DNA of 64,000 bases from Apoderus coryli (taxonomy: Eukaryota; Arthropoda; Insecta; Coleoptera; Attelabidae), in the NCBI GenBank assembly GCA_911728435.2, contig OU452205.1, forward strand, positions 5,028,260 through 5,092,259. The letters are read 5' to 3'. The position numbers and the translations under genes are program-made. The stretch's first letter is position 1; each line of letters starts with the position of its first letter. The notes beneath the pieces are model-generated. The model saw only the letters and a program-made list of their open reading frames with translations. It did no database searches and was not told the origin of the DNA. Below are positions 42 to 61,334 of the stretch, piece by piece.

Positions 42-84
42 TACCACTGATGATGGAGCTTGACGCTCCGAAACATGTTTGGTA
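42..84 (+). ncRNA. Hammerhead ribozyme (type I, Penelope-like)
   Basis: A complete hammerhead motif is readable. Stem I is TACCA (42-46) with TGGTA (80-84). The core CTGATGA is at 47-53. Stem II is GGAGC/GCTCC closed by a short loop. GAAA is at 70-73, followed by a minimal palindromic stem III (CATG) and the cleavage triplet GTT, so the predicted cut is after position 79. Very short self-complementary stem III is the form known from Penelope-like elements, where the ribozyme works best as a dimer. The element body would lie left of the window or has been lost. Self-cleavage is inferred, not shown. Confidence 0.8.
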
Positions 85-342
85 GCTTAGTAATATATTT
101 GTTTCGTTTCGTGGAGGATTGACTTTCATTCTCGGTTAAATAGATTTACTCCACTTCAGAATGGACTACTTTTTTAACACTTATAATATTTTACCATCTC
201 ACAATCAATAAATACAGGGTTGCCCACTGAAAATGAAACAAAAGCCTTTTCGAGTATTTTTTATCTACATTTTTGGAAAAATTCCTGTTCACGTCGGTTT
301 TGTTTGCGAGGAGAACAACAATATAATCAATATACCTTTAAA
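85..342. other. Probable pseudo-LTR tail, no gene
   Basis: AT-rich DNA downstream of the ribozyme. It contains TTTACTCCACTTCAG near 146-160, which resembles the GTCTACTCCAC motif seen at other foldback and repeat ends in this window. A short open frame at 233-418 has no recognisable domain and is ignored. Confidence 0.4.
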
Positions 343-2555: not shown

Positions 2556-2565
2556 TTATTTTTCA

Positions 2566-5862: not shown

Positions 5863-6038
5863 TACAGGGTGTCCCATTAACGCGTTAGAAATTACATTTA
5901 TTTTTTTTTCTGAAATAATCCATCTATCGAGGAGTGAATAGTATGATCTGAATAAAACGACGTCTACTCCACTTGTGGAGTAGACGTCGTTTTATTCAGA
6001 TCAATTACATTTATATTTTTAAATGGGACACCCTGTAT
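5863..6038. mobile_element. Short MITE with ATACAGGGTGTCCCATT ends
   Basis: The 17-base terminal inverted repeat at 5863 is mirrored by AATGGGACACCCTGTAT ending at 6038. Ends of the TACAGGGTGTCCC type are common on insect DNA transposons. The element is about 176 bp and non-coding. A third, isolated copy of the same end (GGACACCCTGTATAC) lies near 6189-6203. Confidence 0.7.
5944..6003. repeat. Near-perfect 60-bp palindrome
   Basis: Arms 5944-5972 and 5975-6003 are perfect reverse complements of 29 bases around a TT loop. The arm contains GAATAAAACGACGTCTACTC, shared in part with the ends of the 24.6-kb MITE and with 56.0 kb. It interrupts the MITE at 5863-6038. Confidence 0.9.
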
Positions 6039-6203
6039 ATTATATTTTATTATTAAAGATTTTTTTTCATCATTCCAAAAATACCACATTTGATGGGTCT
6101 ATCTTAAACGGTTTAACCGGAAGTGTCATGCAGTTGTAATTATGTTATATTTAAATTCTCTGAAATCTTCTAATGTGTCGTCACCATAGGACACCCTGTA
6201 TAC

Positions 6204-7015: not shown

Positions 7016-7039
7016 GAATTGCTGTCGGCACATCAGTAG

Positions 7040-9599: not shown

Positions 9600-10140
9600 C
9601 TACTGCTATTTGAAAACTTGAAAGTTGTCTCCACCTCTATGACAGGGCTAAACCGATTTCAACCAAAAACTAAAGGGTTCATCCTAGGATTAGCCCAAAC
9701 TCATATACCAAAATTTAGCCCAATTGGTTGGAGCTGTTCCATGTGGAAATGGTCTTAATCGTCCTAGGGGGACTTCTTTATCTCAATTTTTTTTTAGCGC
9801 GTTCACAATACTTTCCCTGAGCGGGAAAATAAAAAGGGTACAATTAGGATTACTGATGAGCTTATCAAGTTTTAATTATCTCCGCACACCTTTCAAAATT
9901 ATTGAGTATGCTAAAAATTACATTACATTTAGTTTCGACCGAGGCCAGAACAAAATTAAATTATACAGTATTGTATTAAGTACCCTACAATAATAAAACA
10001 ATTTAAAGGAAATGTTAATGATTATATCCAATTAGTAAATTAAAAGTACAAAGCGACAATATAACTTTCATTTTCAGAAAAGAAACACATTTAGTTGATT
10101 AAAGAAATCAAGCAAAAATGTCTTCTTAAGTAAAGCTATT
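9600..10140. other. No gene seen
   Basis: Repeat-derived looking sequence without a recognised domain. Confidence 0.4.
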
Positions 10141-10149
10141 TTTATACAC

Positions 10150-10500
10150 ATAAATAAATCTACCACCCCGAGCGCGACGCCCTTCAGGCCGACTCCCCAG
10201 CAACAGCTTTCCTACATGCCGGATGACTCACCCTACTATACACGATACTACTATACCCGTCACACATACAACCACCCCCTCGCTTACACATCAACCCCCC
10301 TGGTCTCCATTTACCCCACCGAAAACCCTCAATTTTCACAGTGTGGAATCATCGTCGGCGGCGGGGAATTCCGGGTTAGCCGGACTAAAATGTCTCCTCG
10401 ATATAACACATACATACCGTTATATATCTTTTATATAGAAACTTTCTTGGATGGACATGTACAATGTACAAGGCAATCGACTACGACTGTGTAGGTAGGT
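10150..10500 (+). other. Unidentified GC-richer, coding-like segment
   Basis: A compositionally distinct block in AT-rich DNA. One frame reads TPSATPFRPTPQQQLSYMPD and continues Tyr/Thr-rich. An overlapping frame (10223-10438) ends in a Ser/Gly-rich stretch (NFHSVESSSAAGNSGLAG). Either could be an exon or a frameshifted exon-derived fragment. No acceptor or donor clearly brackets it and I do not recognise the protein. Confidence 0.25.
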
Positions 10501-10777
10501 ATCTTTTATATTTGGATTTATTTATTTATACCATCTACACATGGCAGATGAAATAAAACTCACAGACAAGACTGGGTAAATCTTAAATTGGTTGAATAGC
10601 TGTTAGAAATTCACATTCTTTTAATATCTACTAGTTGTTGCTGTTTGTTCAATCCTGTGTAAACTGATCGAAAAAAGTTAAGGATATTGTGAAGAATGTT
10701 ATTTTTTCGACGATTGTCTTTAAATGCCTTTATTATATGTTCAATCATGATTTGAAAATGTTGTAATGCTGTTTTTC

Positions 10778-10855
10778 ATTTACCCGTGCACAATAAATAT
10801 TCCCCACTGCCTAGCAACTAGTGGGAAATTTTCATTACGCACGGGTAAATTTCCT
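10778..10855. repeat. Imperfect inverted repeat / hairpin
   Basis: TTTACCCGTGC on the left is mirrored by GCACGGGTAAA on the right, and TCCCCACT by AGTGGGAA nearer the centre. It is probably a small MITE remnant. Confidence 0.55.
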
Positions 10856-11027
10856 GGTAATGACAAAAGTAGCGTCGGCCATGAAAAATCACCATAGCAA
10901 CGTCGACAATACAAACACACCAAATTGACAGTTTAGGTATTTATAATTAATAATAATTATAATGAAGTATTTCGCTAATTTCAAAACACAAAAACAGTGT
11001 TAGTGAATATAGTTTAACACCACCTAG

Positions 11028-11360
11028 TCAATTTAATACTTCTAACTTATCGTATTTAGGCTTACGAACAGGGGTAGGTTTAATGTTTAATTGATGCAAT
11101 TCGTTGTTGTTTTTGTTCGAGTGTGAGCTCACGCGGCACCCACTTTGCACAGAGCTTTCGCATACCCAAATGTTCGTATAAAATGGTAAAACACTGCAAT
11201 ATGATATCTTTACAATGTCAGATAGCTCTTCCACCATCAATTTGCGATCGTTCATAACCAATTTGTGAATAACAGCCTCATTTGGGCGTCCACTGCGCTC
11301 TGCATCATTTGTGCTGGTACGACCACGTTTAGATTCAGCAATCCACTTCTCCACCATTTG
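11028..11360 (-). pseudogene. mariner transposase N-terminal fragment
   Basis: Minus-strand reading: VEKWIAESKRGRTSTNDAER followed by SGRPNEAV, then the second helix-turn-helix region (NDRKLMVEELSDIVKISYCSV) and a degraded continuation. This is the DNA-binding half of an irritans/mauritiana-like mariner. The catalytic domain is missing and the 3' part is frameshifted. Confidence 0.8.
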
Positions 11361-11696
11361 GTTGTGTTGAAGAATACGATTTGCAAAGTGTCAGATGGTT
11401 GCGGCTAAGACGCCTTGGAGAACGGTGAAGATGGCGTAAACCTACTATTATTCTACTCCAGATGCATATATGTAAGCTGAAGATAGTAAATGATCGGGCT
11501 GGCCTGGAGATGCTGAACAACTATATAATTACATCAGAAACCGAATATTATAAGAATCAATAAAAGAGAAATGGTCAGCTCATTCGAATTATTCCGAGAT
11601 TTGAAAATACTCTGAATTTTAGGACCCGTTATTATAAAATACAAACAAAGATATTCAACTAAGTTGACAGAGTATAGTATATCACCGATATACAAA

Positions 11697-11872
11697 GAAA
11701 ATGAAATAAACTAACTTGTACGAATTAAAAAAATCTCGTGACACAAGCTGGATTTGAACCAACATCTCCCAATTGGTTAAAACACCTGACCGGCAATTGG
11801 GAGATGTTGGTTCAAATCCAGCTTGTGTCACGAGATTTTTTTAATTCGTACAAGTTAGTTTATTTCATTTTC
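11697..11872. repeat. 79-bp-arm palindrome containing tRNA-like sequence
   Basis: Arms 11697-11775 and 11794-11872 appear to be exact reverse complements around an 18-nt loop (11776-11793). The right arm carries a perfect Pol III B-box (GGTTCAAATCC, 11809-11819) and, with the loop (GGTTAAAACACCTGACCGG), resembles the D-to-T-arm part of a tRNA. The uridine normally found before the anticodon is not seen, so this is tRNA-derived rather than a working tRNA. Confidence 0.85.
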
Positions 11873-13315
11873 ATTATAAAATACTTTATTAGACAGCCGT
11901 AGTAAGTACTCAGCAACAGATATTAACATAAAGAAGTAAAGTTATCAATGGCAGGTAGAAAAGTAGGCGAGCATCAAATTCCGGACAATCTACTAGAAGA
12001 CCCCCAAAAAAGAACACTCACAAATTGCCACATTCCTAGAGAATGTATATTAGTTTATACAATAATAATATTAGGAGATAACTATCTTTTCAAGAAGACC
12101 ATTAATGTATTGTGCTTATTTGGATTAATGTAAGAGCAAGTCCAGTTTAGAAGGCGAAAATTTGGGAGTTATAAGCCTTCTTACTGGTCGGATTCAACAA
12201 AAAAAGCTGAATTGTTTGGCTATCCCATGTGTGTTCCGTTTACTTTGTAGTAAATTAGGCCCAGAACAAAACGATTTGATTCATTTCAATAATCTCATTT
12301 GATGAATTGATTTCTTTTTGGGGCAAGATCTCAGTTTCCTTGTTCGGAGAGTTTAGAAGCTCCTTAACGAGTTTACAGCTTGTTGTCTCAACCAATCTTT
12401 GGCTTTTCTGATCAGATTTGCAAGAATCAAGCCAAATTTCTATCATAGTAAAGGAAACTGGTCGGCTTTTTGTTGTAATCAATGCGTGCATGCATTTTGA
12501 TCTAGGAGATACATGGCCTGGGCTGCATCCACTGAGAAGTTGAGGCAATTCAGTGCTAACCCAGCAGTATATTAATTTGAAATACTTAGATGACTAACAC
12601 TGGTTCATTGTCGAAGAGAATACAAATATACTTTCTAACATTGTCCATCACACAATTATTCTAAAGTACTAAAAAAAATATGTCAACATTATCTAACAAC
12701 TTCAACTTTTCTAAATGTATAACACAATGATCATTGCGTCCAGAATAATCCACTAAACCACCAGACTACTATTATATTCATATATTCAGTGGAATAAAAA
12801 CTGCTGAGGGCATACTTTTAAAAAATTCATTAAAAATTCTGGTAATTCCACGATATTAAACCAATTAAAGCTTTTTCACATGCTAAATATAGGCTAAACA
12901 GTTAACACCAAAGTCTGAATAGTGCTAATCTTTTGCCCCTTTTGTTGTACCAAAAATGTTTGTTGGATAAAATAATACAATGCGGTGTGAGAGAAAGAGC
13001 GAATGCTGGATTAAATGCCCGCTATAGTTGTGGCTGCTGCCTACGCCCTTTTATAATGCTGCCTGCCATTCCAAATAGTTTGGTGGAATTTACTCAGTGA
13101 ATTTGATAATGCATTGCTACACGTCAACACAGGACTGTATGGAATCTTGCTAATCCAGAATTATAATTGTTTCTGTTTAGTAGATACCTAAAGGGGGATA
13201 TTAGGCAAACATATAGCATATTTTGGAATTTTTATCGGCAACATGAAAAATTGTAGCTCGAGAACGGTGTTCATAGGAAAAAAGTCATGAGCATGATCAT
13301 CAGAATAGAAATATT
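11873..13315. other. No gene seen
   Basis: Several short open frames without family resemblance. No splice-consistent exon pattern recognised. Confidence 0.4.
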
Positions 13316-13329
13316 AATTAATAAGGTGC

Positions 13330-15060
13330 GATTGAGCAAATGGAACAGTTGCAAAGACAGAATGACGGCTTTAACTTACACAAAAAACTAAAAGAGACTG
13401 CCGGAATACATAAAGGCCGACGAAAACAATCAGATAATCACCGAAGACCGGGAAAAAATTGCAATCTGGGAAAGATATATTAAGGAACTTTTCTACCAGG
13501 ACAGACCTACAATTATGAACGAAGATAACGACCACTTGACAGGACCACCAATCACAAAAGCGGAGATAGAAAAAGCGATACATAACTCTAAAAACAATAA
13601 AGCAACTGGACCGGATGGGATCCCATCGGAAATATTGAAGATATTGGATGAAAGAGGCATTGAAGTTCTACACAAAATATTTAACATCGTATACGAAACA
13701 GGACAATACCCACAACAATGGCTAAGTTCAACATTCATTCCTCTACCTAAGAAAAATAATGCTAGAAAGTGTGGAGACCATCGACTGATTAGCCTGATGG
13801 GCCACACTTTGAAAGTATTTCTAAAAATAATTCATCAGAGGATCTATAAAAAATGCGTAAGAGATATCAGTAGCTCACAGTTTGGGGTTTAGACAAGGGA
13901 TGGGCACAAGAGAAGCGATAGTGGCCACGCAAGTCCTTGTACAGAACTGCCATGATGTGAGAAAAGACATATGCCTTTGCTTTGTTGATTACGAGAAAGC
14001 ATTTGACCGAGTTGAACATCCCAAACTAATGCAGCTCCTCAGGAATCTTGACATAGATCAAAAAGACATTAGATGTATAGAAAATCTATATTGGTACCAG
14101 ACTGCACAGATTAGGCTCAATAATGAGCTGTCTGATGATATAGAGATCCAGAGGGGCGTGCGACAGGGATGTGTCTTGTCCCCGCTTTTGTTCAACCTGT
14201 ACTCGGAGGGGGTCTTCCGGGAAGCATTGGAAGATGCGGAGATCGGTATTAAAGTCAACGGAGTGTGGATTAATAACATACGTTATGCTGATGACACAGT
14301 GCTCATCACTGATAACATGCAAGACTTACAAAGACTGATAAACACAGTCGGTCAACATAGCAGATTGATGGGTCTAAACATAAACACTAAAAAGACGAAG
14401 TTTATGATAATATCAAGGAACCTAAATGCGTTTGAAGACTCACAGTTAACATTCAACGCAATGCGCATAGACAGAGTGAACAAATGTAAATACTTGGGCA
14501 TGTGGTTATCTGAAGACTGGACCTCTGATATCGAGGTCAAAAGTCGCATCGAACAAGCCCGACAAGCATTCCTAAGACTGAGGAGAGTATTTAGTTGCTC
14601 GGACTTCGATATTGGTCTGAGGTTGAGATTCTTAAAGTGCTATGTGTGTCAGTACTTCTCTACGGGATGGAAGGTTGGACTTAAAGTCAACAACATTAAC
14701 AAATTGGAAGCGTTCGAGATATGGCTTTACCGCAGAATGCTCAAGATACCGTGGACTGCAAGAATAACAAACGTAGAAGTTCTGTCCAACATCAACAAAG
14801 AACGTGAACTGTTAACCACCATAAAAAAGAGAAAGACTTCATATCTGGGGCACGTCATGAGGAACAAGAAGTATGAGTAATTACAGTTGTTGATCGAGGG
14901 TAAGATAGAGGGCCGTAGAGGGATAGGAAGGAAGAAATTGTCATGGTTGCGGAAAATAAGACAGTGGACAGGAATAAATGACATACAGACCCTAATTCAC
15001 ACCGCAAGAAATAGAGAGGAGATGGAAAATGTGATCGCCAACATCCACATTAGTGGATAG
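13330..15060 (+). pseudogene. RTE-like LINE reverse transcriptase, near full 3' half
   Basis: ORF2 from just before the RT domain: NNKATGPDGIPSEILK (13590-13640, RT motif), then a one-base insertion near 13883 shifts frame. GFRQGMGTREA, FVDYEKAFDRVEHPKLMQLL (catalytic Asp), RRGVRQGCVLSPLLFNLYSE-type sequence (QRGVRQGCVLSP at about 14149-14185) and YADDTVLI (14284-14307, catalytic Asp pair) follow. The C-terminal SYLGHVMRN-KYE is cut by a TAA at 14878, after which the same frame continues to TAG at 15058. The 3' end runs into GAAGAAGAAG. Only two lesions are visible, so it is fairly young. The endonuclease domain is missing (5' truncation). Clade assignment is by similarity to insect RTE-like proteins and is not certain. 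Confidence 0.88.
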
Positions 15061-21836: not shown

Positions 21837-22180
21837 TTTTAAATAAACAGTCTTTACATATATTATTTACAAAATGACAGTTATTATTAATTTTAACTGA
21901 CATTACATTGCTATGTTTTTTACAGCATCATGGCACACTCTTTTTAGTTTTGGTTTTGTTTAAAATACATTTAATTTTTGAAAAAGCTTTGTTACTTTAC
22001 TGTTGTTATGTTATTATATATTTATTATATTATGTTAATTAATTTGTTTAATATTAGGTACTTGAAAACAGTCTAAATCTAGAGAGAAACTAACATTCTA
22101 GAAATAGTCCACATTTCATTAAAAAGATTGTCACGAACGTCTTAATTTAATTAAAAACAACACAAAATGCAACGACTATT
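21837..22180. other. No gene seen
   Basis: AT-rich flank of the foldback element. Confidence 0.4.
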
Positions 22181-23313
22181 TATACAGGCTGATCCACTAA
22201 GCGTGTCCAGCGGCTGTATCTCGGAAACTATTGGTCGTAGAACCTTGGGGAAAATTTGTTTTCAATGAAAGTGGTCATGAAAAAATTCTAGAAATTATTT
22301 TTAAACTCCGCTTTTCGCCACAAGGGGGCGTTATTTCATTTAAAAATTTAAAATGCTTAATTTCTCCGAAAATTTCCAAATATAGATACAAATGTGGTAA
22401 CATCATGAAAAAGCCTAGACAATTTTCCACCACAAGAGTGGGGGAAGCCGTTCAATGTGTAATTCTTTAAATAACTGTAACTTCTAAACGCCTTATTCGA
22501 TTTTGACAAACTTAAGAATGTTTAAAAGAGAAAACCAAGCATTTTTAACTGATACACAATAGTGTGTAATAAACTTGCCAGAGGGCGCAATTTGTAATCA
22601 TTAGAGCTTTTTCGATTTTTCTCCAAAAATTTAAATCGCACGGTATAACTAAAATCCCATAATCGCAAACTAGATTACATTTACAAGGAAAGTATAAAAA
22701 CCGCAGTTCGATATCTTTGTTCGTTTCAAAGTTATTACCAAAACAATAATCTGGGCATATCTAATGCGGCCTTCTAAATCTTGATTTATTTTTTAGAAGG
22801 CCCAGATTATTGTTTTGGCGATAACTTTGAAACGAACAAAGATATCGAACTGCGGTTTTCACATTTTTCTTGCAAAGATAATCAAGTTTGCGATTATGGG
22901 ATTGTAGTTATACCGTGCCATTTAAGTTTTTGGAGAAAAATCGAAAAATCTCTAATGATAACAAATTGCGCCCTCTGGCAAGTTTATTAGGAACTATTGT
23001 GTATTAGCGGATACTACAGTTAAAAATGCTTGGTTTTCTCTTCCAATCAATCTCAAGTCTGTCAAAATCGAATAAGTGGTTTAGAAGTTACAGCAATTTA
23101 AATAATTATACATTGAAGGGCTTCCGCACTCTTATTAAGGATCATACATCAATAAGCGTCAGACAAAAGTGATGTAAAGCTATCTAGGCTTTCTCATGAT
23201 GTTACCAAATTTTTGACTACATTTGAGAATTTTCGCAGAAATCAAGCATTTTAAAGTTTTAAATGAAAACGCCTCCTTGTGGCGAAATGCGGAACTTGAA
23301 AATAATTTCTAGA

Positions 23314-23842
23314 CATTTTATTTTTTTATTATTCTTGAACCGCTATTAAACAGCAAACGGGAAAAAAAAAACAATCAAAAATGCCTTCATATTTGAATTT
23401 GTGCTGTTGCTACTACTAATACTTTCAATACAACATATCGGGCAATAGTTCCATCTTTTTAAATAAATATGTATTTTATTATATTTGAATGTTTTAAATG
23501 TGTTTGTAAATATAATGAAAATTGTTTGTTCTTTTATTGACATTGACGTATTGGAATTTGTGTTAGGTAATAATAATCATAAGAAAGGGAATAATAATAA
23601 TAGATAGATATATTATGTATTATATGTAAAAATAGTTTTATAGAAAATAATGTTGTATGTAATTTCAGAAAGAAAAGGAAAAAAAAAATGTTTCAACCTG
23701 AGGAAGTTACTAATTAGTAACGAAACGTCGTTTGTTTTGATTTCTGTGTGATGGTGACGAAAATAAACATGAATATTTTTATGTAGAATAAAGAGGAATT
23801 TTTATAAGAACCGAACACCCCAAGAAAAAAGTAAACTGAAAA
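23314..23842 (+). mobile_element. Penelope-like insertion carrying a hammerhead, with target duplication
   Basis: This segment has no partner in the left arm of the foldback. The host sequence AAATAATTTCTAGA before it (about 23300-23313) recurs as AAATCATTTCTAGA after it (23843-23856), a 14-base target-site duplication with one mismatch. The insert ends A-rich and contains the hammerhead at 23694-23734. It is too short to encode RT, so it is probably a 5'-truncated Penelope-like copy or a non-autonomous retrozyme-like unit. Confidence 0.7.
23694..23734 (+). ncRNA. Minimal hammerhead ribozyme
   Basis: Core CTGAGGA at 23698-23704 (consistent with CTGANGA). Stem II is GTTAC (23706-23710) with GTAAC (23717-23721) and loop TAATTA. 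GAAA is at 23722-23725, then CG and the terminal UC of the cleavage triplet (cut after 23729). Stem III is reduced to A-U and C-G, which would need a dimer. Stem I has three clean pairs (AAC/GTT) plus a bulged C-G. Confidence 0.65.
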
Positions 23843-23962
23843 AAATCATTTCTAGAATTTGCTCATGATCACTTTAATTAAAAAAAAAAAATCCGCAAGG
23901 TTCTACGACCAATAATTTCCGAGATACAGCCGCTGGCCTCGCTTAGTGGATCAGCCTGTATA

Positions 23963-24605
23963 TAATAAAATAAAACAGCTATATAACTTTCTTAATACCA
24001 GTTTTCTTTACAGATTTTCTGAAGTAAAATATTAATATTCCTAGTGAGAGACAGTATTTTGAAAGTACTGACGATACCTTTCATAAGGTCAAAACATCTC
24101 TACTGGTCCAATGATTTCAGGATTTAATTGAAAACAATTAAATTGTGCAATACATACTACCAAACAGAGTAAGTATAACTAAAAGGAAGTAAAGTATTTT
24201 GCCTTGGTGCATATTAATTTCTCGCAGACGCAGACGGAAAAACAACTTAAGAAAAAAATAAATACATTAAGGAATTGCTGTTGATGTACATTTTCATGAT
24301 CGTACCTACCCAATAATGTGAACATGGCAAGGACGAAAAGGTCGTACATTATTAACTGTATTCGTTTATATCTCAGCAAATACCGACCAGTGCAGACTTG
24401 CGAGGAAGTATATTAAATGAATAAATAAGTACATGGCCTGTAACAACGTACCTATATACTAGTACAGAAAATACCTACACACTGTACCAAATAAGGTGAC
24501 TCATCACAACAGTTATGCTTTCTTTGGTACAAAAAAATATTGCATTGGAAGAGCTGAATGGGATTACACAGTGCGCAAAATTTGTTAAACAATAAAAACG
24601 GAGTT
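23963..24605. other. No gene seen
   Basis: AT-rich; no recognisable domain. Confidence 0.4.
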
Positions 24606-28400: not shown

Positions 28401-31400
28401 ACTCCCAGATCCTTGACCGAAGATTTGTATTTTAGGACTGAATGGTCGACAAAATATTCATACAAAAGAGGTCTCCTGGTTCGATTGAAATTTACGCAAA
28501 AGCACTTAGAAACATTTAAAGTCATACCATGCAACTCACACCAATGCACAAATCTCACAACATCCTCCTGCAGAAGATAACAATCTGTGGGACCTCCGAT
28601 ACGCCGGTAACACTTCAGGTCGTCGGCGAAGAGCCTGAATTCACTATGAATGAAACACTGCTTGATATCGTTTATAAATATGTTAAACAACAATAATATC
28701 AGATTTGTTTTATTGTGTCCTTAGTATAAGTTATGCAATGAATTTATTTATTTTTGAAATTGAACTTTTCTTAAATTTAAAAAAAAAATTCATCCAAATA
28801 GTTATTTCTGATGTTATAAATTTTAACACAGATATCACACAATTTTTTTGTCTTCAAACGGCAATAATTTATCTGTTACGAATTAAAGTACCTACACAGA
28901 ATCATCATGTAACTAACAGCTAACTAAATCAACAATAACCACTTACCAAAAATAATTAAGACTTATTTATTAGTTGGGTATTTAGCCACTAACTAAAGTT
29001 AGAATAAAATACCTACACGCCAATCATTGAAATGCTATTTGGATTAATAGTAAAACTATCATTGGCTTTTCAGGTCTGACCATGAGAGCAGAATCAAAAA
29101 ATTTTAATATTTCTCAAAAGATAACGTTTTTATTTATAATAAGTTGTATGCCAAGTTTTATCTAACTTTATATACTTTAAAATCGATTCACAATTTTAAA
29201 TATTTACTTAGTGACTAAGAAGTTTATTTGTACTACTTATTTTTTCCTTTTAATTATATTTTACTAACGACATTATGCCCAAAAAAAAAAAAAAAAATCC
29301 TGACAACACGTATATTCTCAAAGCTCAGGATATGATTCAGCCTAATGCAGAATATATTATGGGTATGGGTTGGGCAGACAGATGACCTAATATCAAAATG
29401 CAATACCTGAAATGTAGACCCACAGTTCTTAAAAAAAAATCAACAAAGACATAAAAAGAATACATCCTTACAGTAGTAAACTATCATCCTCAGTAACTTA
29501 GTTACAGGTCAGTAATAAAGACAACACTAATGTTTCATTTGTCGACGTTTCGACATTTATAAGTTCATATTCAAGACAATTAAAGAACGATGATGGTATT
29601 ATATTATACACGTTGTTAATTATCTTTTTAGTATTGGTGTAACTGTAAGTTTAAATTCTTCAAGATGAATGAATTATGTTAGTGCAAGTGATAAATAAAC
29701 TTCAATAATTTATATTAGCCGTGGCATAGCTCTGTATATATCTTAGTTTTAATGTGTGCATCTTTTCTAGGCTTCGAATGAGCATCTTTCAAAAAACCAT
29801 CCATTACAAATCGCCATTGGAGGCTTGTTGATTACTATATCGTCAATTATACAAATTTACAGTAACACTGTACGTTTAGGTAAACATCTGGACTATCTTT
29901 TACCAAACAGATTTAGTCTAGATATTTTTGGAATGTTTAAACGGTAAGTAATTAAACACTTAAGAACTTCAGAATACATCAAGGCCAGTTGTTTCTTTTT
30001 TTTTTTAACTTTCCATTAGTTTGCAAAACATTTGCTTATTATAGACATTTAATGTAAACATGAATAATTAGTCATTCTTGAATAGGAATATGATATTGTG
30101 GAAAAGTTGCGTTTAAGCTCATTTATATATTTGCTAAAGATTACTAATTTTCGGCCTTGAGTTTTATTAGGGACTAAACTGACAATCGTTTTACCACTTC
30201 ACCAAAACACTTCTTTTAAATCTCGACGCGCGTTTCGCTAACAATGTTAGCATCCTCAGGAGAGAATTAAAACTTGTTTTAAATTAGTTTTAATTCTCTC
30301 CTGAGGATGCTAACATTGTTAGCGAAACGCGCGTCGAGATTTAAAAGAAGTGTTTTGGTGAAGTGGTAAAACGATTGTCAGTTTAGTGTTCTACGCCAAA
30401 GGTTCTACTCATAGATTATATTTTATTAGGGAAGCAATAGTAGGTGTCCAGAAAGGGTGGGGGTATTTGTATATACGCTGTCCATGTAACGGTGCGGCTG
30501 GGAGGGACCCGCGTAAGAATGGTCTTTTGCGCTGCTCTTTAGAGATTTAGTGACCATGGAAGCGTACCCGGGAGACCATCACGCTTTTTGCATACGCGCA
30601 TGCACAGAAGGAGGATACCATCGGAAAATGGATTTGAACGTTTGAGAATACCGCTCCGTGTGTAAAAATTCACAATCAAAGTCGCCCACGCTTTGTTCAA
30701 ACCCAACAACCGATTGAAGAAGAATTTTAGTGCGTCAAAATCAGTTTCAATCAGTTCGCAAACGCAGTCAAGGACTTAACATTCAAAAATCGTCGTTGCA
30801 CAAGTTTCTGAAGCAAGATTTACATCTTACAGTATACACAATTCAGCTCGTTCAAAAACTGAAAGTTACCGAATGAATTTTGCAAATGAAATGTTTCAAT
30901 GCTTCCCAACGTTTGAGAACATGACGTTTAGTGACGAAGCAAACTTTCACTTAAACGAGCAAAACACTGCCGCTGCCGGGCCAACGAAAATCCGAGAGAG
31001 AAACATGAACGACCACAAGATGGTCCAAAAGGTATTGCGTGAGCTGCCATGTCTGGTGAAGGCATCATTGGGTCTTAATTTTTTGATGACTGGCGAGGGC
31101 GAGCAGTTACAGTAAATGGTGAACGGTATTGCGATACGTTAAGGAACTCTTTGGCTCCCCAACTGCAGGAGTTTTAATGTGGACACATGGTATTAACAAG
31201 ATGGGACCACTTGCCACAACTCCAAACAACATCCGTACCGAAATGGCCGCCATTTCTAGAAAGATGTGTAGACGCGTTGCGGCTAATTTCCGCCAGCGCG
31301 ATGGTTAACATTTGAACTCTTAATTTTCCAAAACTAATATCCGAGAAATAAAAAAATTTCTATTACTTTTTTTTATTTAATTTATAAATACCCCCACCCT

Positions 31401-41100: not shown

Positions 41101-44100
41101 ATTGTTGCAGGCTGATCTGTCGAGGCTCGAGCTGTGGTGCCATACTAACAAACTGCCTTTGAATGTGGGAAAATGCAAACTTGCTGTATTCTCCAGGTCG
41201 CAGAGCACACATATGTTTCCCTACCGGTTATGTAATACCATTCTTGACTCATGTGAGGTCGTCAGGGATTTGAGAGTCTATGTGGACACCAACTTACAAT
41301 TTACAACACATACACAGCACCTACTATGTGACTCTTTTCGTATGCTTGGTTTTTTGTTTCGAATAACTAAAGAATTTAACAACGTTGAGTGTCTGACCAA
41401 TTTGTTCAATGCGTTAATCAGATCTAAGCTTGAGTATGTTTCCAATATATGGTATATACATATAAGACAGGTTGAGAGTGTTCAGCGTAGATTTCTCAAG
41501 TACTTAGCGTTCAAAATTGATGGGCATTTTCCGTCGCGCGGATATGATCATCGCATGCTCCTTGACAGATTTACATGAGCTCCTTGGCTACACGTAGAGT
41601 ATATGCTGGACAGGTGTTCCTCTTTAAAATAATTAATGGTATGATTGACTGTCTTCAGCTGCTGGAGCGGATTGGTTTCAACATTCCACAGTTTTTTTCC
41701 AGAAACGCTAGGTTATTCCATATGCATACACTTCGTACCAACTATGAGTATAGGGCACCTTTGTTTAGAGCATTACAAGAGTGCAATGCACGAGGGATCA
41801 GCAGTGAGGTCGATTACTTTGACCAAACACTACTTGGGTTTAGGGCCCAGTTGTCTCGCCTCCTATATCGTTCCGAAGATTAGCTTACTGTGAGATCTTA
41901 TTTATTATATACACATATTCTTTTCCTAAATTAATTTCGATGTCATTAGTTTTAACTCAATAATGTTTATGTTTCCTATCTTAGTAACAATTTTTAGTGT
42001 TATTGTTTCTTAGATAATGTAAAGTAATTCCCTAAATATGTACAATAATTTTCAAGAGTTTGCCTTGTTAAACCTGTTAGGCAAGAAATGAATAAATAAA
42101 ATAAATAAACTAGTTCAGTCAAGCCTTTTGGTAGTCGATTCAGGCCAACGATATTTTGATTCAAGAGAAATGCGCAGATTCTTGCGTGATAGTAGCAACA
42201 AGCTAATCATAATCAATGGTACAGATTCCGTTTAACAGACAAATTATATTTTGTTAAAAAAGTTGTAATAATAAATAATTGATAACCATTTACATCACAA
42301 ATATTCACAGTTTCGTAAATGATGACCAGACCACAAAATCTTAATTACTGAACACAATTAGATTGCCTTAACGGTCTGAAAGTTCCTGCTTCTAGAATTT
42401 TAATTAAAAAAAAACACAAACATTATTATTAATAAATAGCTGTAATAGCACAAGCACTTTATTTCCAAATTTAAATTGAAACACAACAATCAACAATCCC
42501 TCTTTACATGGCTTAACCGCAAAAATACTTTCATGGTGGCATATGATTGGCCCGTTAAAACATTTATTATATACACATATTCTTTTCCTAAATTAATTTC
42601 GATGTCATTAGTTTTAACTCAATAATGTTTATGTTTCCTATCTTAGTATTGGTAACAATTTTTAGTGTTATTGTTGCTTAGATAATGGAAAGTAATTCCC
42701 TAAATATGTACAATAATTTTCAAGAGTTTGCCTTGTAATTGGTTGTTAAACCTGTTAGGCAAGAAATGAATAAATAAAATAAATAAACTAGTTCAGTCAA
42801 GCCTTTTGGTAGTCGATTCAGGCCAACGATATTTTGATTCAAGAGAAATGCGCAGATTCTTGCGTGATAGTAGCAACAAGCTAATCATAATCAATGGTAC
42901 AGATTCCGTTTAACAGACAAATTATATTTTGTTAAAAAAGTTGTAATAATAAATAATTGATAACCATTTACATCACAAATATTCACAGTTTCGTAAATGA
43001 TGACCAGACCACAAAATCTTAATTACTGAACACAATTAGATTGCCTTAACGGTCTGAAAGTTCCTGCTTCTAGAATTTTAATTAAAAAAAAACACAAACA
43101 TTATTATTAATAAATAGCTGTAATAGCACAAGCACTTTATTTCCAAATTTAAATTGAAACACAACAATCAACAATCCCTCTTTACATGGCTTAACCGCAA
43201 AAATACTTTCATGGTGGCATATGATTGGCCCGTTAAAACATTTATTATATACACATATTCTTTTCCTAAATTAATTTCGATGTCATTAGTTTTAACTCAA
43301 TAATGTTTATGTTTCCTATCTTAGTATTGGTAACAATTTTTAGTGTTATTGTTGCTTAGATAATGGAAAGTAATTCCCTAAATATGTACAATAATTTTCA
43401 AGAGTTTGCCTTGTAATTGGTTGTTAAACCTGTTAGGCAAGAAATGAATAAATAAAATAAATAAACTAGTTCAGTCAAGCCTTTTGGTAGTCGATTCAGG
43501 CCAACGATATTTTGATTCAAGAGAAATGCGCAGATTCTTGCGTGATAGTAGCAACAAGCTAATCATAATCAATGGTACAGATTCCGTTTAACAGACAAAT
43601 TATATTTTGTTAAAAAAGTTGTAATAATAAATAATTGATAACCATTTACATCACAAATATTCACAGTTTCGTAAATGATGACCAGACCACAAAATCTTAA
43701 TTACTGAACACAATTAGATTGCCTTAACGGTCTGAAAGTTCCTGCTTCTAGAATTTTAATTAAAAAAAAACACAAACATTATTATTAATAAATAGCGGTA
43801 ATAGCACAAGCACTTTATTTCCAAAATTAAATTGAAACACAACAATCAACAATCCCTCTTTACATCACTTAACCGCAAAAATACTTTCATGGTGGCATAT
43901 GATTGGCCCGTTAAAACATTTATTGACAGATCAAATTCTAATATATGACATTACCATTACTCTCAGCTCTCAGGCAAACGAGCACTTCAGTACTTTTACA
44001 ATGATAAATTATTTTAGGTGAGAGACCACACAAGTGCCAGATGTGTCCGAGAGCATTTTCAACTAGTTCAAATTTAATAGCACATGTAAGAATACATACT

Positions 44101-45791: not shown

Positions 45792-45980
45792 CATAATTCT
45801 CGAGAAAATTGCGTTTCAAATTTCACCAGTTAGGTAGTTGGAACATATTATCTTATTACAATTAGAATACCTACAATATTTTCAAAGAGGATTTTGGGGC
45901 GTCATTGATAGAGCGTTCGCTTCCCATGCGGAAGGTTATGGGTTCGAATCCGAGCTCTAACAAAACTTTTTTTTTTTTAG
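45792..45980 (+). repeat. tRNA-like SINE copy
   Basis: A leader (ATAATTCTCGAGAAAATTGC...) shared with 9390-9530 precedes a tRNA-like part: an anticodon-arm-like hairpin with loop TTCCCAT (CCC, Gly-like) and a perfect B-box GGTTCGAATCC at about 45940-45950, then an A-run followed by T-run. Two copies with the same order in one window support a SINE family rather than a tRNA gene. Confidence 0.6.
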
Positions 45981-46015
45981 GAAATAGTCCATTACTATGA
46001 GTGGAGTTCAGTATA

Positions 46016-47384
46016 TTGTAAGTTGAAAAAAGAGTCACTCTCCACGATTAAACGATACTTTAATAAGGCATCAATACCATAAATTGTTAGTTAGACATGT
46101 TTCGGGATACCTGTTCCCATCATCAGTAACGTAATTATTACACAAGAGAGCTAATTCTTGAGTTAGAATAACATGATGTTTTTAATTTTATATTTAATGC
46201 GTCATTGAAGTCTGAAACCAAAGCGAATATGTAAATCATAAACAAATTTAAAAGGTTAGCTACTTACAATATTTAATGGAAAAATGTTTTTTGGTTTTTT
46301 GTGAGAATTTTTCTGTTACTTTTTTAACGTTTCTTCCACTATTTCTTTTTGTAAATCATAATTAAAATTATAGTTTGTGTTACGTTATTTTTATTAAATA
46401 AACGCAATAAAATGGCTGCTTTCGGAGATTGTTGTTAATAATAACATGGTTGGCGCCACCTATGGTTTCAGTTTCCAACAACAAACATCTTCCACAACTT
46501 ATCCTTCTACAGAGAGCTACTTTTTAATATTTTAAAGAGCATCAAAGGTGTTATACAGTGTTGGTATCTATACAAGTTTCACACAATAGAATGGTATATC
46601 TTTATACAAATTTTTAAAAAGAGGGCGTTGTGTGAGGGAGTATGTATGCTTATTAGTTAGGCAACTCAAATTACTTTTTTCAAAAATATTATGTAGATTA
46701 GGCCTGATTTCAACTTAGAGTTGGTGCAATTATTATTATTTTAATAATGTGGATTCAAGGCGGGGTGAGGAAGGTGAAGGAGTTGAAGAATTTGGTGCAT
46801 GTGAATTCGATTTGGTCGTTGAGACATGTGATATTAGGGTTGTTAACGATGGAGTTTATTTCTAGCATTTCGAGTGTGTTTAAGAGTGGACCTTTATTGC
46901 ACGCATGTAGAAGTTTGAAGTTTTTAGTGGGGTCAAAATTATGGTGCGAGTTATGTACGTGGTTTGCGAAGGATGATGCACTTTCGATAGTCACGTTGTT
47001 ATTAGTAGAGGCCTTCTCAATAATTTTAGTATGTTCTTTAATTCTAGTTTTTATGCTTCTTCCAGATTGTCCTACGTATTTTTGCTGGGCAATTTGGGTT
47101 GCCGCATTCTAAGAGATATACGCCTGATTTTTCGTTTAGTTCGGGTTTTTTTATGGTATTGATGCCTTATTAAAGTATCGTTTAATCGTGGAGAGTGACT
47201 CTTTTTTCAACTTACAAAACTTTTTTTCTTCTAATTTTTGAATAAAAAGAAATTTGAAGCAGAATTTATTCGAAGCATTGTTTCTTGTTTCTATAAGTTT
47301 AGTTGTCTTTGGAAGTTTTCTGTCTAAAACATGTAGGACAATGTTCATTAAATAAATACATTTGTGGGAGGTTTGACTTTGCAT
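46016..47384 (-). pseudogene. Penelope-like element with GIY-YIG endonuclease remnant
   Basis: Minus strand: SGVYLLECGNPNCPAK, then after a frame change near 47040-47055 YVGQSGRSIKTRIKEHTKII (YIG-type motif, Arg and Glu positions of a GIY-YIG nuclease) and FANHVHNSHHNFDPTKNFKL to the end near 46755. This is the C-terminal endonuclease of Penelope-like elements. A ~68-bp inverted repeat flanks the region (46019-46085 and 47151-47216, TTGAAAAAAGAGTCACTCTC...); on the right it overlaps a frame encoding KLEEKKFCKLKKESLSTIKR. The RT domain is absent. A hammerhead lies just downstream at 46090-46130. Confidence 0.8.
46090..46130 (-). ncRNA. Hammerhead ribozyme of the Penelope-like element
   Basis: Minus strand: stem I GTTA (46130-46127) with TAAC (46093-46090). 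Core CTGATGA (46126-46120). Stem II is GGGA/TCCC with a larger loop, then GAAA, palindromic CATG stem III and GTC, cut between 46094 and 46093. Same strand as the GIY-YIG remnant and inside the repeat-flanked element. Confidence 0.78.
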
Positions 47385-50797: not shown

Positions 50798-53700
50798 ATG
50801 TTATTCAAAAACTGGGTGAGTTGTGTTTGTTTTGTTAATCTGAATTACAGTTGAAACTTATTTAGGTAGTCAAAAGTGAGTATCTGTGTTTGTTGTTTTA
50901 GCTCGCATGATGTGTTAGTGAAAAGTGTGAAACGTGGGCAAGTTGATGTAGTTTTATTTATTAGTCATAGTCGATGATTGGCTGGGTTTTTGATAGTTTT
51001 ACTTATAGGGGTCATATAAACTATGTGCCTATTTCTTTTTGATAACTATGTAATACATATATCCTACTACTTACTTGTTTAGCTAGTGCGAAACAAGTTT
51101 TGCCTAAATACATTTTGATTTACGAGCCGGGCACATTAATGCGCATAATTTCCATGGGAAAAATCAGCTAATTATTAGTAATTTAAATAAATAATACCTA
51201 CATACGTCTGGACAATAATGGCTTATAGGGCCCAAATGGGGGATACACTCCATCTAGAATCATAAAAAATCCGCAAAGTGTAGACATTAAAAACAATTTT
51301 ACGAGGAGACCTATACCATAGAATAAATAAAGAGAATATGAACTCCCACCACTTTCTATTGTCCTGTGCGGTGCAGGTGGTAGCCATTTTTTAATATACA
51401 CGACAGATCCGTATTTAAGTTTTATTGAAATTACAGGATAGGTAAAGAACAGGGGAGTAATAGAACTATTTTATAATAGAATTACATCTTTATTAATTAT
51501 AAAAACAAACAAATACTTTTATTCCTGTTTCCATATAATCATTTTATTTTTATTTATATTTTTAAAATTTCTATTGATTAATTTTAATGTATAAAATATA
51601 ATTTGGTAACATATTTTTTTGGGAAATTAGAACATGGATGTTCAAAGGTTACACTTTGGTTTAAATTAATAAAATTATTAATAATATTTAACTTAATTAA
51701 ACAATTTTCAAAATTATTTTGAAATATATTTTCTAATTTGGAAATGTATTGTTCAGCTCTAAAGAAACAAAAAGTGTAATTGATTACGGGCAAATATAAA
51801 TTTATTAATTTTAGATAGAGTAAAATAAAATTGTTCTAATTTATACAATAGGTCTACCGATTTTCAATTCCTTAAGTATAATTGAGAATGTATTATATTT
51901 TACCTGTTTATGGCCTTCAGAAAAACAACGCAAGCACACATGTTGGGAATTTCCTACAAAACATGCTAAAATCACCCCCAATTAATGGGCAATAAAACCT
52001 GAGATGAGAATTTACTACCTGCTAATATCTATAATAGTTAAAATATGTAATTCAAATTTAATAACTACTGTCAGAATTTAATAGAATTTTTGCACTCATC
52101 TAGTAAGATTTTTAAGCTCTCTTTTTAGAATGCTTAATATGTATTGGACTTTTATGGGCAAATAGACTGAACGAAGTTATAAAAGATAAGGGCCACTGTG
52201 CTGCGAAATTAAGCGAAGTTATTAAATTTGTGTGATTTTTTTTAGCAAGTAAGCTCAATCTTTTAAACAGTTTGTTTAGAAACATTTGTTTTTCAAAATA
52301 ACAATTGGTAATTTGATTCAATGTACCTATGTGATATTATTTGATTCTAATTTTATACGCATCTAATTCAAATACTACATATCTTACCTTTTACTATATC
52401 CATCGGGAAACTAAAGAATGATAAATTGCAGTTATAATATTTATTCCTGCAATTCTTCGCAGCACAAATCATTCCGCCTCTGCTTTTTTGCATTTCAAAA
52501 TAAACAATATCACTCTCAAAAGTTTAGAAAACAAAAACACACAATACACAGTGCCGTAGTATTCTGTGTGTTATATAGTTATAACACACAGAATACTACG
52601 GCACTGGAAAACAAATCACTTGAAATGGCAAAGCACAAGTAAAATATCCCGACGACAATGAGTGTATAAGAAAACATGGCGAGCAAGATCACATTCTCTG
52701 TTTATTTATTCTATGCCTATACAGACACAAAGGCGGATCATTTTCAAAGCTTAAGAAGGTCTATATCCCTTATAGTTGTTTAGCAAATTAATGCTGTCGC
52801 ATGGATATGAGTTCATATTTAATTGTTTTCCAGAGTGTGTGTTAGAAAATATGTCATCGTCTGATAATGAATGTATTTTGCTTTTGACTACAGCATTTGT
52901 AGCATATAATAAAAAAGAAGAAACGTAAATTTTGCATACATCCTTTATTAACCGAAAAAAAAAACAGATTTGTTAATATTTCTGTAAATCAGTACATAAT
53001 AAGGTACTGGTTCCTCATAAACGAGCGACCCTTGAGAGATCCTGTTCATAAATTATTTTATATAATTTGTAGGCGTGATTGCCGTGAGGAGGTCCCTAGC
53101 AATCTATCAACTTAATATTATTTATTTTTGTGTTTGTATATTTAGGTATTTTTATCTCCAATGAAAAAATCCGCCCTGAAATAAATAAGTATGTCATGAT
53201 ATAAAATTTTCATCACATTTTTATTGCATTGTGGACACATACCTTAAGATTCAAGTATGATTGCATTATAGTGAATAATAAATTAATTTTAATTTTTTTT
53301 AATGACATCTTTTAGTGTTTAGTTTTCATACTGGGTACAATTCTTAGTTTATGTAAAGCGAGAGAAATATCGAGAGATAACAGTCTCAGGGATGTAGAAA
53401 CCAAGGAACCATTTGAATTAGATGAATTCTTCAATGGAACATTTTCGACGTCAGGATGGAATGGGACATGGTTGAGCGGTGAGTTAATCCTTCAACTGGT
53501 ACTTATATGCAATGAAATCGTATGAATCTGATTCCACTCTTTTGCTATACCGACTTGTATTTTGTCTTACTCGGAACTTACTTATCTGTCACATTTGGAA
53601 ACTGATTGGAATTTAAAAGTTGGCACACGTATCATGGTGACATGCAGGAGTTTTAATTGTCAAAACGGGAGCTAAAATATAAAAACAAAGACCTACTATA

Positions 53701-59700: not shown

Positions 59701-61334
59701 TAGCTGAAATAAAATCTTGCATACTACATTGTAGTTATAGACTAACAGGTAGCCATTAACAGCAGCCAAGTGCAAACATTGATCATTTTTGGCATATTAT
59801 GATTAAAACGATTGTATAGGTACATATAATACAACAAATTTGTAATCAGAACGGCACCTCGCGGGTAGTTTTGATTTTCTCCATTCTTTATGTTTTTTGG
59901 AGTGCTGAATACAAATCTGAGGTTTGCTAACAAAATTTCGTTATGCAACATTGAAAAAAATGCAAAAAAAAACTTTTAAAAAGGTAAATTTGGCAGTTCT
60001 ACTCTACATTTTTCAGAAAAAACAATTTACTATGAACTACGATGCTAACTTTTGTTTGTAGGACGAACCGTTTGGGCTCGAGCCCTAGTTCTAAATAGTC
60101 ATATCTTATTGCTCTCCCTAAACACCCACATTTTCACTACAAAACACAATTTATTGATAATTTAAAGCTCCTCCTAGTTTTAAAGTACTAAATACAATGT
60201 AGACTACCATCTGCAGTTCTAAAAAACTGAATTCCAAAATAACATTTGATTTAAATTTTGGGCAAACATAATTCCGTCTTGCAGCCTTCATAAATAAAGG
60301 TACTATCATAAAAAAGCTAAAGAATGCTGTGATGAGGACGTGCAAGGCATAATCAAGTGTGTTATACCTGTATCAGACTTGGTGGCTTCTGAATGTCAGA
60401 ATCATAGTTTATGTATGAGAAAAATATACAATCGCTGAGACAAAAGACCTAGAGGTCATTCGCCAATAATGTTGACGCAGCAATGGAAGACAGATATCTT
60501 GAGAATAGTGATAGAGAGTCCCTGTTTTCGTTCGAAGAGTTGATTAACCAAATTAAAGGAGATTATACAGAGATTCAAACTACTGTATTGTAAGAATTGC
60601 TTGTTACATAAAGTAACAAGACTTTAAGTTATGTTAGAAAGTTTTTTCACACTACCATGCTTTCACCAGACGGCCGTTTCGTCGATCAACGACTCATCAG
60701 TGGTGATCGGCAGGCAGTGTGTATTGTGTTGAAAGTGAAAGCTTAAGGGCTTTATTTTTGTTTTTTGCATGTTATGAACTCAATATGTTCAAAAGCTAAA
60801 CAATGAACTAACCAATGAAAGAAATGTAATTCTTATAGAGGAAGTACTAGGAGGTGGTTCAGCGCTCTGGATTTCACCACTCGGTACTCAAATTGCATAC
60901 GCTACATTTAACGATACAAATGTGGAAGAATTTACTTACTATTTGTATGGAACGCCTGGATCTTTGGAGAGTCAGTATCCTACAAGTGCTACAATTAAAT
61001 ATCCTAAAGTAAGACCTTTAAATCCTATGTATTCCTAGTTAAAATAAGTCTTTTGTTGTTCAAAGAAAGGAATTTATCTGAAATGAAACTAAATATGTAA
61101 TAGGTTGGCACTTCGAATCCAGTGGTATCCACCTACGTCTATGACATATCTTCTGGTATAACTACAGAGTTTCAGCTGCCCTCTTCGATAAACAAAGATG
61201 AATTCAATAACGATTACGTATTGTATGATATGACATGGATTTCGGAAACGGAATTAGCTATGATTTCGACTAATCGCATTCAAAACGAATCTATTGTTGT
61301 AAGATGTGCAGTCAGTAGCGGGGTTTGTAGCGAG
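50798..61334 (+). CDS. Secreted dipeptidyl peptidase 4 (venom-DPP4-like), first 8 exons, incomplete
   Basis: Exons 50798-50815, 53316-53478, 53946-54040, 56325-56399, 56473-56525, 56769-56965, 60839-61008, 61104-61334; GT-AG introns and continuous phases give 334 residues, and the gene continues past the window. Exon 1 has only six codons; joined to exon 2 it makes the hydrophobic signal MLFKNWCLVFILGTILSLCK, with no obvious anchor, so the product is probably secreted. GTFSTSGWNGTWLS, YNITTQSSEEFL, DWVYEEEVLGGGSALWISPL and YPKVGTSNPVVS are S9B-family propeller motifs. E200-E202 match the Glu pair that holds the substrate N-terminus, implying an active enzyme. The Ser-Asp-His catalytic domain (family length about 770 aa) lies beyond 64000. 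Several N-x-S/T glycosylation sites. It would trim X-Pro or X-Ala dipeptides from extracellular peptides. Confidence 0.93.
51317..52715. mobile_element. Non-autonomous hAT-like element, copy 1 (DPP4 intron 1)
   Basis: Ends are inverted (CATAGAATAAATAAAGAGAA at left; mirrored ...TTTATTTATTCTATG at right). CCTATAC flanks both sides (51310-51316, 52716-52722). The interior is shared with 61498-62554 at high identity, plus an extra ~400 bp holding a hairpin at 52549-52606. No transposase is recognised. Confidence 0.82.
52549..52606. repeat. Perfect 27-bp-arm palindrome
   Basis: Arms 52549-52575 and 52580-52606 (starting CAGTGCCGTAGTATTCTGTG) are exact reverse complements around TAGT. It is present only in copy 1 of the hAT-like element. 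The CAGTGCC start resembles hAT termini, so this may be a tiny nested element. Confidence 0.9.
54902..56165 (-). pseudogene. RTE-like LINE 5' region with AP-type endonuclease (DPP4 intron 3)
   Basis: Minus strand: YGNYRRELKRFSINIAALSE near 55480, then EEFYSQLVRVLTNIPDSNKI, ILRGDVNVRVGRDSALCPNT (family GDFNARVG, catalytic Asp/Asn) and HWHLIDYGIVHL (family IDYV). This is the EEP endonuclease of RTE-like elements. The upstream 55506-56165 frame is probably the element's 5' region. RT is missing, and stops and frameshifts occur between blocks. Confidence 0.78.
57015..57640 (-). pseudogene. hAT transposase (ZBED/Charlie-like) C-terminal fragment (DPP4 intron 6)
   Basis: The left boundary shows a hAT-type end (CAGGAGTTCCCAAACTTTTT at about 57018, continuing toward GGCGCC). 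On the minus strand: LHQEIHTFLHKKGHASSRYF, DIFGNLSLESVSARLKMHN, ENIERYSWIQNLFHSH, LLEFGIKFKSLRDSH. This order matches the C-terminal part of ZBED5-like hAT transposases, before the dimerisation domain. Stops near 57350 and 57425 show decay. Confidence 0.7.
58640..59250 (-). pseudogene. LINE RNase H and C-terminal fragment (DPP4 intron 6)
   Basis: Minus strand: LCSDSQAILRA (RNase H Asp, about 59140-59170), NLLRVPGHSGIESNERADWL (His/Asp block, about 59015-59080), SKRTARQLLKYWAKSEHQRY, KLLTGYCALLRSYLKKMYNG and the knuckle CRLCNGAVEAAYHVICECGA. The same LINE type as 3560-4858 but a different subfamily. Uninterrupted from 59306, so fairly young. Confidence 0.85.
59600..60600. other. Intron 6, nothing assigned
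   Basis: Contains ATACAGAGTGTTTTATTATAC near 59609, reminiscent of transposon ends. No partner was found. Confidence 0.35.
60663..60706 (-). ncRNA. Hammerhead ribozyme (DPP4 intron 6)
   Basis: The best-formed copy. Minus strand: stem I TCACCA (60706-60701) with TGGTGA (60668-60663), 6 bp. Core CTGATGA (60700-60694). Stem II GTCG/CGAC with loop TTGAT. GAAA, self-complementary stem III CGGCCG, and the GTC triplet; cut between 60669 and 60668. It lies 133 bp before the acceptor of exon 7, antisense to the DPP4 transcript. Confidence 0.82.

Follow-up and report, generated by a model that had tools for sequence, protein, structure and literature searches.

According to the accessible part of their description, the endonuclease (EN)-containing Penelope retroelements of Adineta vaga carry inverted pseudo-long terminal repeats (pLTRs) with a 31-bp tail on one arm, are flanked by 8-10 bp duplications, and show head-to-head arrangement and sequence capture (PMC3846280). 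In the corresponding part of the work on PAc, a Penelope/Poseidon element of Anolis carolinensis, the protein was reported to cut and extend both target strands with two adjacent internal start sites, while cleavage by the ribozyme was not required in vitro and RNA ending at the cut site was not observed (PMC11167929). The portions available of two further papers deal with retrozymes and with minimal hammerheads of Penelope elements (PMC7229834, PMC6155905). The insertion route of Penelope-like elements and the role of their ribozymes are open questions, both of which are testable with one element. Herein, we analyzed the hammerhead motifs in a 64,000-nt stretch of the beetle Apoderus coryli (GCA_911728435.2, contig OU452205.1, positions 5,028,260 to 5,092,259; hereafter the window) together with their relatives in the genome. 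The best explanation, which we consider probable as a whole, is that these are type I hammerheads in Penelope-class elements, that each window element arose by a separate retrotransposition event, and that insertion in this genome usually proceeds by two-ended target-primed reverse transcription, with the ribozyme in the template usually uncut and occasionally cut.

Most family A copies compared are two-armed hairpins with fixed outer ends

The genome (428 Mb, 129 contigs) was searched with the hairpin found near 30 kb in the window (family A; insertion 3 in Table 1), and only the best 40 first-look candidates per query were scored. The whole element as query gave 1326 first-look candidates, and hammerhead plus tail gave 1239. 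In total, 70 distinct copies were compared, namely the window copy, L023-L042 without L025 (a duplicate of L024), L043-L062 and L063-L092, and an unbiased sample of 40 copies was drawn by a tail-only query as the best of 866 candidates.

Both arms lay within the stretch read in 57 of the 70 copies. In most resolved copies the RNA 3' tail was present on both sides as an inverted, tail-outward pair, with two fixed outer start points approximately 35 nt apart and the two copies meeting head to head at a variable join. The long arm ended at leader position 133-136 in all 57, and the short arm at 95-105 in 53 of them. A target duplication of 11-15 bp was identified in 54 of the 57, against 7 of 3192 cross-paired flanks, and the duplications of relatives were mostly 12-14 bp. 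Family A thus shows both the target duplication and the pLTR-like repeats, tailed on one arm, that are expected of Penelope-like elements.

The inner ends were far less uniform: both arms started at or before position 5 in 39 copies, one was truncated past position 8 in 10, and both were truncated past position 8 in seven. The 33 copies with both arms reaching the leader start contained 24 distinct centres of 3-20 letters, whereas the arms differed by a mean of only 0.64 letters between copies and 0.2 mismatches within a copy (20 copies). Since so many centres occur despite nearly identical arms, the join is formed anew at each insertion, the outer ends being fixed. The use of arm variants to distinguish one template from two was dropped, as the variants were too few.

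The autonomous partner and the copied RNA

Six copies without a nearby second arm extended upstream into one common sequence (96-100% identical between copies), which in L044 corresponded to the end of a GIY-YIG-like frame. Three of these six long copies (L101-L103) proved on further reading to be two-armed, with the short arm ending at 100, the long arm at 133-135, and target duplications of 14, 12 and 12 bp, respectively, bringing the two-armed copies to 60 of 70. In L101, Pfam recognized both RVT_1 (7.1e-16) and GIY-YIG (1.3e-06). Insertion 3 thus appears to be the truncated product of a Penelope element bearing reverse transcriptase (RT) and GIY-YIG domains, rather than a short ribozyme-only unit of the kind that the original prediction suggested may be mobilised.

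A TATA box (TATATAAG) is located approximately 32 nt upstream of leader position 1 in the longer copies (counted by eye), which is the usual spacing between a TATA box and the start of transcription. Among the 40 copies of the tail-only sample, 32 were two-armed, and the 5' end of the long arm fell between -4 and 5 in 25, upstream beyond -50 in four, at -10 after the poly(A) of another sequence in one (L050), at scattered positions from 9 to 44 in nine, and at 51 in one. The predicted ribozyme cut was read through in 39 of the 40. The 25 ends at the leader start suggest that the template was usually an uncut linear mRNA leader, because a circle would not stop there. In L050 and L102, the family A leader was joined to poly(A)/poly(T) and other sequence, the stretch in L102 showing a weak RVT_1 match; these joins look as if the RT, on reaching the RNA 5' end, had switched to a different polyadenylated RNA.

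In the proposed mechanism, the GIY-YIG enzyme would cut both target strands to leave a staggered break, and the RT would extend both broken ends, starting in the part of the RNA tail that immediately follows the ribozyme. If the tail used is the one close to the 5' end of the mRNA, both cDNAs would run off at the transcription start to give the 240-bp leader hairpin; if it is a 3' copy of the tail, the element body would be copied to give the longer RT/EN-bearing copies. Where the ribozyme of the template had occasionally been cut already, the arms would begin at the scissile site.

Insertions starting at the predicted ribozyme cut

In L063, both arms start at position 51, the letter immediately following the predicted cut after position 50. 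A query with the L063 hairpin (791 first-look candidates) yielded L104 and L106, and a query with L104 (784 candidates) again returned L063, L104 and L106 as the top three. The arms of L104 start at 51 and 51 and those of L106 at 51 and 52 (by eye), that is, five of the six arms are exact and one is off by one. The centre fillers of the three insertions are A, TAAA and GTGTGGT; the target duplication is 14 bp in L063 and 12 bp in L104 and L106. As for other copies, the join of L105 is inside the palindromic stem III, that of L107 is elsewhere, and L084 has one arm starting ambiguously at 49-51.

Of the 20 truncated arm ends in the tail-only sample, two were exactly at the cut, or three counting L084 (binomial, 0.019 or 0.0012), which is only suggestive because both exact ends came from one copy and are not independent. 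The stronger point is that both arms start at the scissile letter in independent insertions; furthermore, among the seven of 57 copies with both arms truncated, the sole equal-ended one is at 51. These starts are probable, rare footprints of the predicted ribozyme cleavage in vivo.

Hammerhead motifs and insertions in the window

The six hammerheads claimed by the original prediction were present at their positions, starting at 42 (+), 23694 (+), 30221 (-), 30297 (+), 46090 (-) and 60663 (-). A structural scan of the window (core CTGANGA, stem II of at least 3 bp, GAAA, self-complementary stem III, UH, and stem I of at least 3 bp) returned exactly these six, and the 200 dinucleotide shuffles run as a control did not reproduce them (mean 0.02, max 1). 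All six exhibit the conserved core of a type I hammerhead flanked by its three helices, of which helix I is the open one; the motif at 23694 is the weakest, with a stem I of 3 bp, and in five of the six an additional U or A lies unpaired between A9 and stem II. While all six motifs exist, they amount to only five insertions, as those at 30221 and 30297 are the arms of one inverted repeat. Its further claims also held, namely that the hammerheads fall into several families, that they are of the minimal type described from Penelope-like elements, and that RT is absent from most window copies.

The covariance check remained at background level: Rfam made no hammerhead call in the window at the gathering threshold, and its sole hammerhead match up to E 10 was at 60671-60713 (21.5 bits, E 6.1). 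As nothing attained the threshold, Rfam was dropped as the arbiter of hammerheads, and its miRNA matches at 30191-30370 and elsewhere, all below the gathering threshold, were set aside as inverted repeats. Single-strand folding of the five distinct sequences supported two (z -4.2 and -2.7) and gave no support for the other three (z -1.0, 0.6, -0.2), and the minimum free energy of the monomer was lower than that of the hammerhead fold in all five. A double hammerhead was favoured over two monomers for insertion 3 only (-28.5 vs 2 x -7.5), being somewhat less stable in the other four (-26.8/-29.0, -6.9/-13.4, -11.6/-13.8 and -34.5/-35.2).

Table 1. The five hammerhead-bearing insertions of the window and their parts
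Feature	Position	Strand	Details
Insertion 1	1..193	+	Starts ~57 nt before the window; hammerhead 41-85, then tail
Insertion 1, direct repeat	right 184-193; left at window position -67 (in L093)		TAATATTTTA, 10 nt
Insertion 2	23305..23856	+	Hammerhead 23695-23732; arm reaches ~23846
Insertion 2, direct repeat	23305-23313 / 23848-23856		ATTTCTAGA, 9 nt
Insertion 3, family A leader hairpin	30162..30432	.	Short arm from 30173/30174, hammerhead 30221-30263 (-)
Insertion 3, long arm			Hammerhead 30297-30339 (+), tail to ~30420; hairpin centre ~30280
Insertion 3, target duplication	30162-30173 / 30421-30432		TTTTATTAGGGA, 12 bp
Insertion 4, putative Penelope remnant	45960..47227	-	Hammerhead 46090-46130 (-); GIY-YIG-like 3' ORF 46755-47108 (-)
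Insertion 4, inverted arms	46016-46083 / 47150-47217
Insertion 4, direct repeat	45960-45973 / 47214-47227		T-rich, 14 nt
Insertion 5, family B	60583..60727	-	Hammerhead 60663-60706 (-), tail to ~60592, 5' end ~60721
Insertion 5, direct repeat	60584-60591 / 60720-60727		TGTATTGT, 8 nt
ORF, open reading frame.

As summarized in Table 1, short direct repeats of 8-14 nt flank all five insertions, the shorter ones (8-10 nt) being weak evidence on their own, and all five could be filed as Penelope-class retroelements. The tail of insertion 1 was alignable at 74% to the RT-bearing L017. Insertion 2 contains, at 23317-23347, a 31-nt piece of the outer tail of the opposite side, identified in part by alignment to L094. 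The ORF of insertion 4 had no Pfam match and was 53% identical to the Pfam-recognized GIY-YIG ORF of L016 and 56% identical to the RT-bearing ORF of L017.

Insertion 2 is hosted by a large fold-back element (22177-23967) with nested inverted arms. Adjoining the insertion 3 hairpin, the region 30442-31412 contains a decayed frame (30780-31115) enclosed by 33-nt inverted repeats and by eye has the look of a mariner-type remnant.

Abundance and constraint across the genome

The CTGATGA-type pattern CTGATGAN{4,20}CGAAA matched 8904 + 8931 = 17,835 times genome-wide, compared with 265 + 292 = 557 for the reversed-pattern control, and the CTGAGGA-type pattern CTGAGGAN{6,24}CGAAACG matched 1896 + 1959 = 3,855 times, compared with 3 + 9 = 12. 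Stem II was at least 4 bp in 70 of the first 100 CTGATGA matches listed, 3 bp in five and shorter in 25, from which the structured hammerhead motifs of the genome may be roughly estimated at 10,000-15,000. By these counts the density of motifs, which the original prediction noted for one locus, is not specific to the window: five insertions per 64 kb is an ordinary to slightly high share for this genome, and the reading as a local cluster was dropped. About one third of the 100 CTGAGGA matches listed belonged to a family without good stem II (by eye).

Of 73 distinct CTGATGA sequences, 45 had 4 bp or more in stem II, compared with a mean of 3.1 (max 8) when the inner letters were shuffled. The extra nucleotide after A9 was U in 33 and A in two of the 35 distinct sequences that carry it; all 35 begin stem II with a G-C pair, and the three positions that follow covary in pairs. 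Stem I also changes in step across families (by eye), and such compensatory helix change across families, as expected of type I hammerheads, was apparent at the sequence level. When stem II was strictly required to have 4 bp or more, helix III was a loopless palindrome in 21 of 28 sequence types (ACATGT, ACGCGCGT, ACGGCCGT, ACGT or ATATGCGCATAT; by eye, at loci other than L023-L092), a point variant of a palindrome in four, and unrelated letters in three; the palindromic form would fit dimers.

Adjacent matches that share a stem family and lie no more than 3 kb apart were classed by orientation (by eye): minus-then-plus 7, same-strand 1 and plus-then-minus 0 among the first 100 CTGATGA matches listed, and 9, 0 and 3, respectively, among the first 100 CTGAGGA matches listed. 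The three plus-then-minus pairs all came from family CGATTTTTTTGAAATATTTTCG, which lacks good stem II and may be no hammerhead. Family CTGAGGACGATTTTTTTGAAATATTTTCGAAACG (e.g. G000:C1:5725337 and 5725981) forms plus-then-minus pairs without good stem II; it inflates the core-pattern counts and may be no hammerhead.

Other families and the tandem arrays of family B

The two-ended shape with a target duplication was also observed in L009 (two elements, 14 and 12 bp), L013 (12), L019 (13), L094 (12) and L017 (12), the last carrying RVT_1 by Pfam. Family B, represented by the motif at 60663, gave 1423 first-look candidates and consists of non-coding tandem units of 333-336 nt with a type I hammerhead, a GC content of 0.44-0.45 and no long ORF seen, which agrees with the short non-coding tandem units of metazoan retrozymes. 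The L096 array comprises two units in one orientation and five in the opposite one, arranged head to head with a spacing of 336 and a 16-nt flanking repeat; its five complete units, both strands included, are 100% identical to each other, 95.8% to the L099 unit and 58% to the L009 unit. The template of family B may have been circles or multimers, either of which would give such identity, and its mobilisation probably occurred in trans along the two-ended route proposed for family A. Insertion 5, a short copy standing alone, has its 5' end near the start expected from TATAAGC in L097/L100 (by eye).

Weighing of alternative explanations

An inverted repeat could also form if a single cDNA folded back at its far end and copied itself, as proposed for rotifer Penelopes, preferably on an antisense template, in the accessible part of PMC3846280. 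The near-identity of the arms within a copy (0.2 mismatches vs 0.64 between copies), the two private variants (L036, L042) found in both arms, and the leader letters repeated in some centre fillers are consistent with such self-priming. Copying of this kind should, however, reach the outer end of the first cDNA, whereas the second arm ends at 95-105 rather than 133-136 in 53 of 57 copies, and several second arms lack the inner part yet keep the outer end (starts e.g. 30, 40, 65, 75-79), rendering self-priming quite unlikely. That the family A hairpins are DNA transposons of the miniature inverted-repeat type (MITEs), spread as fixed inverted-repeat units, would accord with their size of ~240 bp, inverted repeat, fixed outer ends and more than 1000 first-look candidates. 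Neither the equal terminal inverted repeats nor the fixed duplication length of MITEs was found: the arm ends are ~35 nt apart, the duplications vary from 11 to 15, the centres differ between copies, and the copies without a nearby second arm continue into a GIY-YIG/RT gene, leaving this explanation very improbable.

The spread of ribozyme-only units as RNA circles or dimers has the metazoan retrozymes as a precedent (in the available part of PMC7229834) and draws on the 336-nt non-coding units of family B, identical on both strands of L096. This explanation is doubtful, given that 25 of 40 family A copies stop at the presumed start of transcription, which a circle would not give, and that insertion 5 is one short copy. 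The starts of L063, L104 and L106 might alternatively be pauses of the RT at structured RNA; structured RNA does stop RTs, the class is rare, and the exact ends in the unbiased sample were two from one copy plus an ambiguous third, with non-independent ends in the binomial. A stop caused by structure should nonetheless lie near 55, where helix I has its 3' edge, and not four letters inside the helix, whereas five of six arms begin exactly at 51, where the only equal-ended doubly truncated copy of seven also begins; we thus regard pausing as unlikely. In an addition to two-ended retrotransposition, to which we give little credence, the fold of the ribozyme would also serve to hold two RNAs together. 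The loopless palindromic helix III would suit a double hammerhead of two RNAs over a single hairpin, and the joined pair would provide two templates, one for each side of the staggered break, resulting in two-ended inverted insertions; cutting would later release the pair, and RNAs cut before use would leave the rare scissile-bond starts.

Several points weigh against retrotransposition by the two-ended route. The first 20 copies (L023-L042) were a biased sample drawn by a hairpin query, a target duplication was absent in three of the 57 two-armed copies, and 10 of the 70 copies were counted as unresolved for the second arm. Elsewhere, L016 (GIY-YIG by Pfam) has a repeat of only 9 nt, no convincing target duplication was found in L010, L011, L097, L098 and L100, and insertions 1 and 5 have one arm only and short repeats (10 and 8 nt). 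Leader position 1 is presumed to be the transcription start from the TATA box, Rfam and single-strand folding lend the hammerhead fold as a monomer little support, and the cut-site class is small, consisting of three insertions from searches with 791 and 784 candidates.

Other repeats and genes in the window

The ORF at 38544-39611 encodes a zf-AD domain, a domain characteristic of arthropods. Three tandem copies of a ~670-bp unit, 97-100% identical, occupy 41900-43720, and two dispersed copies of a ~1.1-1.4 kb repeat, 83-98% identical in pieces, are located at 51315-52721 and 61496-62563, the latter with short inverted ends. Near-perfect hairpins are also found at 634-830, 5944-6001, 11691-11878 and 52550-52605, several of which are listed sub-threshold as Rfam miRNA families, most likely through pairing alone.

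Comparison with known systems

In the literature searched, with most subscription papers, including the 2014 Penelope-hammerhead paper, outside its scope, we found neither leader-only two-ended Penelope hairpins nor insertions starting at a hammerhead cut. The many young two-ended copies provide a readable record of the reaction, comprising the two starts, the stagger, the switches of template where the RNA ends 5', and the small scissile-bond class. They also advise caution, in that a short ribozyme-bearing hairpin need not be an independent mobile unit.

In the hammerhead of chrysanthemum chlorotic mottle viroid, A9 is likewise separated from helix II by an additional nucleotide, whereas the extra nucleotide here is usually U (33 of the 35 distinct sequences). 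Family B resembles the metazoan non-LTR retrozymes, as presented in the accessible part of PMC7229834, in its tandem 333-336 nt units, type I hammerhead and GC content of 0.44-0.45, but differs in having units on both strands, head to head; the word "inverted" is absent from the available text of that paper. With PAc, as far as the accessible part of its description goes, the present elements share the hammerhead by the ORF start, internal RT initiation at two adjacent sites, cutting and extension of both target strands, AT-rich targets and the dispensability of ribozyme cutting; the difference is that the PAc study detected no RNA ending at the ribozyme cut, whereas three of the present insertions start there. 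The present elements also agree with the Penelopes of A. vaga, for which the available text gives an inverted pLTR beside the element, a one-arm tail, duplications, head-to-head arrangement and capture of unrelated sequence, all shared here. That text lacks the word "hammerhead" (PMC3846280), and the duplications are 8-10 bp there but mostly 12-14 bp here; furthermore, leader-only hairpins dominate the present sample, and their copy number lets the end points be counted. Taken together, the elements belong to a known kind and are very abundant, and their variant product, the leader hairpin, renders an open mechanism testable.

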